The notes beneath the pieces were generated by a model, which was not told where the DNA came from, did no database searches, and was given only the letters and a program-made list of their open reading frames with translations. From positions 62,001-126,000 of the forward strand of contig CACVBU010000953.1 of the NCBI GenBank assembly GCA_902728285.1: a DNA stretch of 64,000 nucleotides, given 5' to 3'. This DNA comes from Clytia hemisphaerica (taxonomy: Eukaryota; Cnidaria; Hydrozoa; Leptothecata; Clytiidae). A program made the position numbers and the translations under genes. Shown here one piece after another: positions 22,001 through 25,000 of the stretch. Position 1 is the stretch's first letter; every line of letters begins with the position of its first letter.

Positions 22001-25000
22001 TTAACAATTTACAACAATGTCATTTAAACTCGAATGGCTCCTTAGCGTGAACCTAGCTCCTTTAGTTAACAATGTACAACAATGCCATATAACTCGAATG
22101 GCTCCTTAGCGTGAACCTAGCTCCTTTAGTTAACAATGTACAACAATGTCATATAAACTCGAATGGCTCCTTAGCGTGAACCTAGCTCCTTTAGTTAACA
22201 ATGTACAACAATGCCATATAAACTCGAATGGCTCCTTAGCGTGAACCTAGCTCCTTTTTTTAACAATGGACAACAATGCCATATAAACTCGAATGGCTCC
22301 TTAGCGTGAACCTAGCTCCTTTAGTTAACAATGTACAACAATGCCACAATCAAGGTCATAATATTTGAGAAAAAAGGGAAATCCACCGGGAAGTTTTTGA
22401 ACCACAATCGATTTGTAAGTGCTCTAAAGTAGGTTGGAAGGGTAGAGTTTTAACTCTGAGTTTTAACATGAGACTTAAGACTTAGTACCTTAGGATCTCA
22501 GGATCCAAAAGTTCAAAAATAGTCCAATAAGACTCAGAATATAGCCTGGAAGTCTGCCAACCCCTCCCAAATTGAAATATTCGATTAAATAAAAAAGATA
22601 GCCAAAAATCGACTTTCTCGCCAGAACTTTAAATCTTGAAAAACGTTAAAATAGCAAAAATTCTCAATATATTATGACCTTGATTGTCTTTGGAAATCAA
22701 AAATGCCAAATTCTGCTCTGCTGGGGGTCTAATTTCAAACTTAAGTCATATTTCCCGGTTAAAAATATCCCTTTTTCGGTTTAACAGCCAAAAACTTTCA
22801 AAAAATTAAAAATTTTCTCAAATATTGGCATTTTTAGATTTCTGTAAACGGGACCTTATCAAAAAGTGAAATATTTCACCAAAAACTGATTTTGACCTAT
22901 TGAAAATGCTTCAAAATGGTCGGAAAAGGGTTATTTTTCAAATTTTTGGGGTTTTCTCCTAATTTTAGACCCCCCGCAGAGCAGAAATCGGCATTTTTAA
23001 TTTTCAAAGACAATCAAGGTCATAATATTTGAGAAAAAAGGGAAATCCACCGGGAAGTTTTTGAACCACAATCGATTTGTAAGTGCTCTAAAGTAGGTTG
23101 GAAGGGTAGAGTTTTAACTCTGAGTTTTAACATGAGACTTAAGACTTAGGACCTTAGGATCTCAGGATCCAAAAGTTCAAAAATAGTCCAATAAGACTCA
23201 GAATATAGCCTGGAAGTCTGCCAACCCCTCCCAAATTGAAATATTCGATTAAATAAAAAAGATAGCCAAAAATCGACTTTCTCGCCAGAACTTTAAATCT
23301 TGAAAAACGTTAAAATAGCAAAAATTCTCAATATATTATGACCTTGATTGCAGATAACTCGAATGGCTCCTTAGCGTGAACCTAGCTGTAAACTGAGAAC
23401 CTCGTGAAATACAAAATTTCATGTTTGTGTTTTTCTTGGTTTTATTTTATTATATTCAAAATTTACAAAAATATACAAATTTAAGTTTTCCTTGTTTTTC
23501 AGTGTCTTTCTGTTTTTGTCACATGTGGACAGAGCTTTCTTTAAGGGTCTAGACACATTTTGGAAGTTTTCTTGCATGTCCACTTTGTTCTGGTCTTTGT
23601 CCTTTGTTTTGTTCTGCATTTTACATACAATTCAATTTAGAATAATTTATATAATTTATGCACAAAAAATAATTGATTTATTCATAATTTATTACATATC
23701 CACTTTGTTTTTTATAATTTTTGTCCACTTTGCTTTTTGACACAAAACCAGCACTTTGCTTTTTGTCTTCAGTTGTCAACTAGCTTTTGAGGAGTTAACA
23801 TCACTCTCAACTTTCAACTGAAGTCAATTCAACTCAATTCAAGATGGCTTCCAGTTAACTCTTAAGCTAAGTTGGGAACATCAATCAGTATTCAATTCAA
23901 ATCAAATCTCAATTCAAGCTCTCAAGCATACTTCATTCAAGCTCTTCATTTTGTCTAGGATTCTCACCACTACATTTCCTGGCATGCTGGTAAATAGACT
24001 TATATTTTACATTTTTCTTTCAACTTAGACTTATACTTTCATAGACTTATACTTTCAACTCAGACTTATACTTTCAACTTAGACTTAGACTTTCAATCAA
24101 TATCAATTTTCTTTGTACATTGCTGCTAGAACTTAGATTTTCACAAAGTAGGCGTGTCAAATTTGACTTTATTTTTTTTGTTCAAGTTTTTTATTAGTTA
24201 TTTATTTTTTCTTTTGTATTCTTTTTTCAGTTTTGAATTCTTAATGAATTACAAAGAGCTTGCAAAGAAATTGGTGCACACCTTTATAACATTCAAAACA
24301 GCCCACCAACAGCTACATGCGTCGAAGCACACGTGCAGCTGCAAACAAACCCATCAATTATAAATCGTTTGGCACTCAAGGCATACGATTGCCACCTGAA
24401 ACAACCAGTCAAGCATTATCAAGCGATGAATCAGATGCTGATATATCAACATTAGAGCAAACGTTCAACTTATATCAAAGTTTATACGAGAGTGATACCT
24501 CTACACAATCAGTTGACGCAAATCTTTCACAACTTGTCCGAGGTTTAACAATCAAAGACCAAATTATGGAAAACGATATTAAAAACATTTCAATTGAACA
24601 GAATGTTCTCTCTAGTGAAATTGCTGATATCGGTACAGATTATGACATTGAGTTTATGACGTACAGTGAACTGGAACAACTCTTTAAGGAAGTAAAAACA
24701 ATGCGCAACCGCCTGAAAGTACTACATAATGAAATACTTCAATCTGTCGGAACAGAAGAATACAAGAAAAACTTTCTTAAATCCTACAATGAAACTATCC
24801 ATAATGCACAGACAGTCATTCAACGCGTCAATGCTCGTCGAAAAGAAGTCCGCCCTGATGAGAAGAACGCCCAACGCAACAAATCATTATCAGACTTTTT
24901 AATGAAAGAGGTAAAATCTACTATTACTTCACTTGAGGCAGTTTTTAAAAATGATCCAAGTGCATTTAGCTATGATGAACTTGTACTTGCTGAACGTAAT

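Follow-up and report, generated by a model that had tools for sequence, protein, structure and literature searches.

Elements of the Tc1/mariner superfamily are TA-specific, and their excision leaves remnants of about 3 nt. Identity between LTR-like terminal repeats is normally read as a sign of reverse transcription, and small gene-less elements with direct terminal repeats, solo repeats and arrays form a comparable class. Helitrons and Replitrons are eukaryotic transposons which use HUH endonucleases, but to our knowledge neither is known to pair an HUH protein with a Tc1-like transposase and long terminal direct repeats (LTDRs). Two LTDRs enclosing an internal region (INT) are the plan of KolobokP, which Kojima and Bao (2022, PMC9587614) called unlike any other DNA transposon. 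That paper describes LTDRs with short inverted ends of their own, solo LTDRs, (LTDR-INT)n-LTDR multimers, INT-INT junctions and non-autonomous members, and a transposase gene in the INT with a second gene, for a nuclease, on the other strand. Miniature inverted-repeat elements (MITEs) in tandem arrays are described for the coral elements CMITE and CMITE-IN, although these are ~100-bp units of piggyBac type with TTAA duplications (PMC2872659).

The window, i.e. the whole stretch of 64,000 nucleotides of Clytia hemisphaerica DNA analysed here, contains a 1004-bp element with an LTDR-INT-LTDR plan, hereafter called A-M-A. Two LTDRs of 340 bp in direct orientation, A1 (22347-22686, + strand) and A2 (23011-23350, + strand), differ at 1 of 340 positions and enclose a non-coding INT of 324 bp, M (22687-23010, + strand), which has the edges TC..GA. 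Each A begins with CA and ends with TG, and has perfect inverted ends of 18 bp (CAATCAAGG..CCTTGATTG); when a single 1-bp gap is allowed, 25 of 26 aligned columns match. The inverted arms of M are 46 bp long with 41 of 46 positions paired, and the symmetry of M extends into the flanking A ends, giving ungapped arms of 64 nt with 92 % complementarity. The left junction arm runs from the LTDR end into the INT start (22669-22732, + strand) and its partner, the right junction arm, from the INT end into the LTDR start (22965-23028, - strand). Neither the symmetry of A nor that of M was matched by any of 2000 shuffles. The near-identical direct blocks, their own inverted termini, the inverted repeat in the middle and the symmetry across the block-middle junctions had all been described in the initial annotation, and each was confirmed by these measurements. 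The word palindrome is loose in one respect: the 1004 bp as a whole do not form one, each A having short inverted ends and M being framed by longer arms. Nor is the structure a nest of unrelated palindromes; it is a composite element bounded by long terminal direct repeats. The longest stop-free stretch in the 1004 bp is 51 amino acids, which agrees with the earlier statement that the element has no coding capacity, and an Rfam scan of the window gave 0 matches. Being short and non-coding, with terminal inverted repeats, a target-site duplication and many copies, the element has the features by which MITEs are defined.

The element lies inside a 65-bp satellite and is flanked by two copies of CA (22345-22346 and 23351-23352, no strand). 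This 2-bp duplication, also reported in the initial annotation, is exact if the empty site was CCAGATAA, a monomer variant which is present in the satellite arrays; the expected empty-site variant CAGATAA was found 4 times in the arrays, compared to 129 times for CATATAA.

Related copies were searched for in the 417-Mb, 951-contig genome assembly, the genes of which are eukaryotic. The genome searches score the best candidates alone, so the resulting counts are lower bounds. Thirty-five loci, chosen by their match to the 1004-bp element, were parsed into A-M-A monomers, (A-M)n-A arrays and broken copies, and A adjoined M in all 35 of these loci selected by similarity. The largest array read (contig C493, locus L061) had 14 A and 14 M blocks. 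The units of an array share one orientation, the exception being L025, in which an assembly gap separates two parts of opposite orientation that face one another. Runs of N occur in or near the family copies at L021, L025, L026 and L043, so that some array sizes may be underestimated. A search with A only gave at least 40 matches, and 17 of these, outside the known loci, were fetched: 16 were solo A with a matching 2-bp duplication and one (L047) continued into M. The pattern CAATCAAGGTCATAATATNV was present at six places in the genome, five of which were fetched; three were variant solo A with TA duplications, and in the other two the likeness to A ended after its first 103 and 117 positions. 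The exact outer-end pattern occurred 419 times, both sides of an insertion being counted. The first-look candidate numbers, 4214 for A and 393 for M, suggest that solo A is far commoner than the M-containing forms.

A second A-M-A copy is present in the window at 48206-48758 (- strand), flanked by TA/TA. It is internally deleted and ~75 % identical, consisting of A(1-304), M(13-52) and then A from about position 135 to the end, and its divergence indicates that the arrangement is old. The occurrence of A-M-A monomers, arrays and solo A in the same genome shows that the arrangement is not an accident of the assembly. The existence of A alone would be expected if two unrelated MITEs had become nested by chance, or if the assembly had duplicated one, but this explanation is contradicted by the recurrence of A next to M at every parsed locus, chosen though these were by similarity, and by the 25 % divergence of the old copy in the window. 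It was rejected, and we give it practically no credence. The initial annotation had proposed a non-autonomous, tandemly amplifying DNA element family and a search of the genome for A, A-M-A and A-M-A-M-A with their flanks; all three forms were present, which supports the proposal. Simple 340-bp MITEs alone, with the arrangement in the window unique, had been named as the contrary outcome; instead A-M-A, arrays and solo A all recur.

Insertions with both outer ends (20 monomers, 7 arrays and 16 solos) were flanked by a 2-bp duplication in 43 of 43 cases, TA in 34, TG in 5 and CA in 4. Shortened copies and L022 were left out of this count, and the twin insertions of L030 were entered as two. The duplication was preceded by C in 29 and followed by G in 27 of the 43, and the target is ANC-TA-GNT-like. 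All three forms had the same signature, from which it follows that one integration machinery probably inserts monomers, arrays and solo A. In two arrays (C41, L018 and C493, L061) two M blocks abut with CAG alone between them. The M blocks at the two junctions belong to different subgroups, so A appears to have been lost independently at each, leaving the same 3 nt, as after excision from the array.

These features also bear on whether A could be the LTR of a miniature LTR retrotransposon (TRIM), which would have direct repeats, solo repeats and tandem arrays like those seen here. LTR retrotransposons and TRIMs have TG..CA ends and duplications of 4-6 bp, whereas A has CA..TG termini with 18-bp inverted ends and the duplications are of 2 bp; the inverted edges of M do not fit either, nor do the M-CAG-M junctions, which suggest that A leaves arrays. 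An LTR retrotransposon or TRIM was rejected and is considered very improbable. Compared with small gene-less elements with direct terminal repeats in general, the element in the window is set apart by its inverted ends and its 2-bp duplication, and no priming sites were noticed in it.

On average, the two A's of one copy show an LTR-like similarity. Within 19 monomers A1 and A2 differed by 0.9 % on average (median 0.3 %), compared to 5.4 % between A1 and A2 of different copies and 5.6 % between A1 and A1 of different copies, and none of 20,000 permutations was as low as the observed within-copy difference (L015, L022, L043, arrays and shortened copies were left out of this test). The signal is less clean in single pairs than in the mean. 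When compared with all 96 A's, the partner from the same copy was the single closest sequence in 9 of the 19 monomers and tied as closest in 4 (L011, L024, L027 and L028). It was not the closest in 6 (L013, L014, L020, L031, L039 and the copy in the window), most of them in young groups in which all A's are less than 1 % apart, with L039 as an old exception. The two A's in the window differ from each other by one substitution and from an A of L018 by none. Shared private alignment columns were clear in divergent copies (14 in L036 and 5 in L037), and many pairs were grouped by copy in the tree of A's. Such likeness within copies is not expected of a cut-and-paste element with two independent A's, so both A's of a new insertion appear, from these alignments, to come from one template or to have been homogenised at about that time. 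In this respect A resembles an LTR, although solo insertions of it also occur. The LTR-like likeness of the A pair is a sign of the unusual copying mechanism that had been proposed as a possibility. Homologous recombination of a circle into a resident solo A was rejected as the main route, because it should leave A1 and A2 about 5 % apart, like random A copies, and most of the 19 monomers had low values.

Gene-bearing elements of about 4 kb, probable relatives of A-M-A, are present in the same genome. A genome search with the Pfam family DDE_3, in which the best 111 of 334 candidates were scored, gave at least 115 matches, many of them in regular ~4-kb steps. Six loci (L063-L068) were fetched, each with a transposase frame facing a second frame. 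The transposase frames are 335-426 amino acids from stop to stop and are broken in some array units; the second frame is 453-509 amino acids in five elements and 359 in L066. The D, D and E residues of the aligned transposases have DD34E spacing. The transposases match Pfam DDE_3 above and NCBIfam IS630 below the cut-off, and as a profile matched the Sleeping Beauty transposase in the PDB with an E value of 2.8e-16. The gene-bearing elements carry, then, a DDE_3-type DD34E transposase, by which Tc1/mariner elements are recognised.

The second protein has the motifs of a Rep in the expected order (motif I, HxH, YxxK, Walker A and a Walker B-like block), and LxTYSQAD, HxH, YxxK, Walker A and the D.RW block are invariant in the five proteins aligned. 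The Pfam Rep matches were weak and consistent, with REP_ORF2-G2P in 5 of 5 and Gemini_AL1 in 3 of 5 (E up to 0.1), and a papillomavirus-type helicase was matched in 2 of 5; the E values in Pfam ranged from 2e-5 to 0.2, with no curated Rep family above its cut-off. In a PDB profile search Rep helicase, E1 and Rep catalytic chains were matched with E values from 0.004 to 0.2, and two unrelated chains ranked below the Rep and E1 chains, while NCBIfam gave weak, chance-looking ATPase matches alone. Based on motifs and profile matches, our reading is that the second protein is a putative HUH-SF3 Rep similar to those of CRESS-DNA viruses and geminiviruses, from which it differs in its location, a chromosomal transposon that also encodes a DDE transposase, and in its marginal similarity to known Reps. 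None of 34 pattern stretches in viral contigs and 24 in genome contigs was confirmed as a relative of this protein, and no relatives were found in phages or in PHROGs. A convergent Rep was present within 2.5 kb of at least 62 of 106 merged transposase loci, and of at least 39 of the 55 loci longer than 1 kb; 16 of these 55 were without a listed Rep partner among the best 93 of 278 Rep candidates scored.

The repeats in the six elements are 163, 169, 174, 202, 202 and 211 bp long and have CAAT..ATTG ends. Their ends are similar to those of A, but these LTDRs are not A-type. The INTs start with TC and end with GA as M in the window does, these edges having formed part of the search rule for L064 and L067. 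Since any stretch of an array recurs with its period, a repeat is proved terminal only where the outer ends were read. The outer flanks were read at four loci, and were TG/TG (C224), TA/TA (C248), TA/TA (C672) and AA/AA (C61); those of L063 (C254), L064 and L067 lay outside the reads, and one read of C254 had two repeats abutting. The repeat-INT junction is inverted at both ends of the INT in the window element and in 4 of 4 gene-bearing elements compared, although on the INT side the inversion covers only 3-9 bp in the latter; this is the same symmetry as that noted across the block-middle junctions of A-M-A. Each repeat separates one gene of a unit from the other gene of the next unit, the two being divergent with their 5' ends towards the repeat. 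One monomer with both frames open (L068, 1108-5311, on C224) is separated from the end of an A-M array by approximately 550 bp. The other five loci (L063-L067, on C254, C353, C248, C61 and C625) are arrays of ~4-kb units; those read are 98.5-99.98 % identical to one another, which suggests recent amplification. In the window A and in L063, L065, L066 and L068 the two inverted ends differ in length by one base at a common position (ATATTTG versus ATATATTG; GTAAATGG versus GTAATGG), a shift which was not evident in L064 and L067; it perhaps marks the left versus the right of the repeat.

The element in the window is most likely a non-autonomous miniature of this Tc1-like lineage. The full account, which we consider moderately probable, is that it is a gene-less member of a Tc1/mariner-type LTDR-INT-LTDR group with Tc1- and Rep-encoding relatives, which amplifies through rolling-circle concatemers. 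A would be the LTDR and M the INT of a composite transposon of Tc1/mariner type (IS630-like, DD34E), and the Tc1-Rep elements would be both its relatives and its suppliers, as their similar ends, same INT edges and tandem multimers suggest. The transposase would free and insert DNA at the A ends; the Rep would drive rolling-circle copying of an excised circle with one A and one INT, and the resulting concatemers of identical units would be inserted as monomers or as arrays. Mobilisation of A-M-A by the Tc1-like transposase is what we infer from the similar ends, the INT edges and the target sites.

The chief rival to the rolling-circle account is that the same family forms its arrays and similar A pairs by unequal crossing-over or gene conversion between chromosomal LTDRs, with no rolling circle. 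At L030 (C207:3301000-3310999) a duplicated segment carries the same insertion twice with near-identical flanks, in one case with three repeat units and in the other with two, which fits unequal crossing-over. Units are also unequally diverged in some arrays (L017, L026 and L061), and for the like architecture of KolobokP an induced unequal crossover has been proposed (PMC9587614). The near-identical A pairs in most of the 19 monomers, from lineages several per cent apart, would however require homogenisation at or near each insertion, and the gene-bearing elements of this plan encode a protein resembling Rep. Crossing-over as the whole explanation is thus thought unlikely, if still a serious contender.

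Another possibility is that an ordinary Tc1-like transposase moves A-M-A and that the Rep elements are related, with no part for the Rep in A-M-A copying. None of the six elements fetched was an autonomous one with an A-type LTDR, and the 16 of 55 long transposase loci without a listed Rep, from the best 93 of 278 candidates, would also be in line with this. The common CAAT..ATTG ends and TC/GA edges, the multimers and the average likeness of the A pairs argue against it, and we judge it rather improbable, somewhat more so than crossing-over.

The architecture and behaviour of the Clytia elements match KolobokP in the LTDR-INT-LTDR plan, the inverted ends of the LTDRs, the solo LTDRs, the multimers and INT-INT junctions, the non-autonomous members and the two genes on opposite strands. 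In KolobokP, however, the termini are 5'-RR..YY-3' rather than the CA..TG of the window and gene-bearing elements, the duplications are 3-5 bp instead of 2 bp (43 of 43), the LTDRs are ~450 or ~660 bp instead of 163-340 bp, and the enzymes are a Kolobok transposase and a His-Me nuclease instead of a Tc1-like DD34E transposase and a Rep-like protein (PMC9587614). Membership in KolobokP was rejected on account of these termini, duplication lengths and enzymes, and the same plan is thus found in a Tc1-like lineage. The likeness to Tc1/mariner (IS630) elements lies in the transposase of the gene-bearing elements with its DD34E spacing, the preference for TA and the short remnant after A loss. The long terminal direct repeats, the multimers and the Rep-like gene are differences, as are the TG or CA duplications in 9 of 43 insertions (TA in the other 34) and, among gene-bearing elements, one array with AA and one element with TG.

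More tentatively, and with slightly less than even confidence, we propose a new class of eukaryotic transposon which combines a cut-and-paste DDE transposase with a virus-type rolling-circle Rep. Excised circles with one terminal repeat would be copied into rolling-circle concatemers, which would then be inserted. All insertions, whether of monomers or of arrays, would in this way have identical LTR-like ends from the outset, and gene-less miniatures, the window element among them, would be carried along. LTR-like terminal identity is present here in what appears to be a DNA transposon, and elements of the same plan contain a plausible cause, the Rep gene. If the proposal is true, two usually separate modes of moving DNA are joined, and a transposon has a direct route to a tandem array, from which satellite DNA could start. 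The composite plan of KolobokP would then have evolved a second time, in another superfamily. Elements of this kind may also be wrongly dated from the divergence of their repeats, or wrongly classified by automatic LTR or MITE annotation. No report of a Tc1/mariner or DD34E transposase paired with a Rep, HUH or rolling-circle protein was found in the literature searched, which had most subscription papers outside it.

The 65-bp satellite also contains a BEL/Pao-type LTR retroelement (Peptidase_A17, DUF5641) at 23387-30827, which begins about 36 bp after the A-M-A element and has LTRs of ~905 bp (23387-24290 and 29927-30827) with 98.9 % identity. Exons of an MCM9-like helicase are located on the + strand at 10426-10902 (P-loop part) and 36646-38771 (lid part and a long frame); as they flank the satellite, the retroelement and A-M-A, all three may lie in one long intron. 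Several pairs of inverted repeats of 92-126 bp with 87-98 % identity occur at 11593-15630 and are perhaps another MITE family. A recent duplication, 54452-58105 and 60797-64000, includes a DUF4419 gene and aligns over 2837 bp with 98.9 % and 390 bp with 94.9 % identity, and a 112-bp tandem repeat is present in about 15 copies at 6092-7796.
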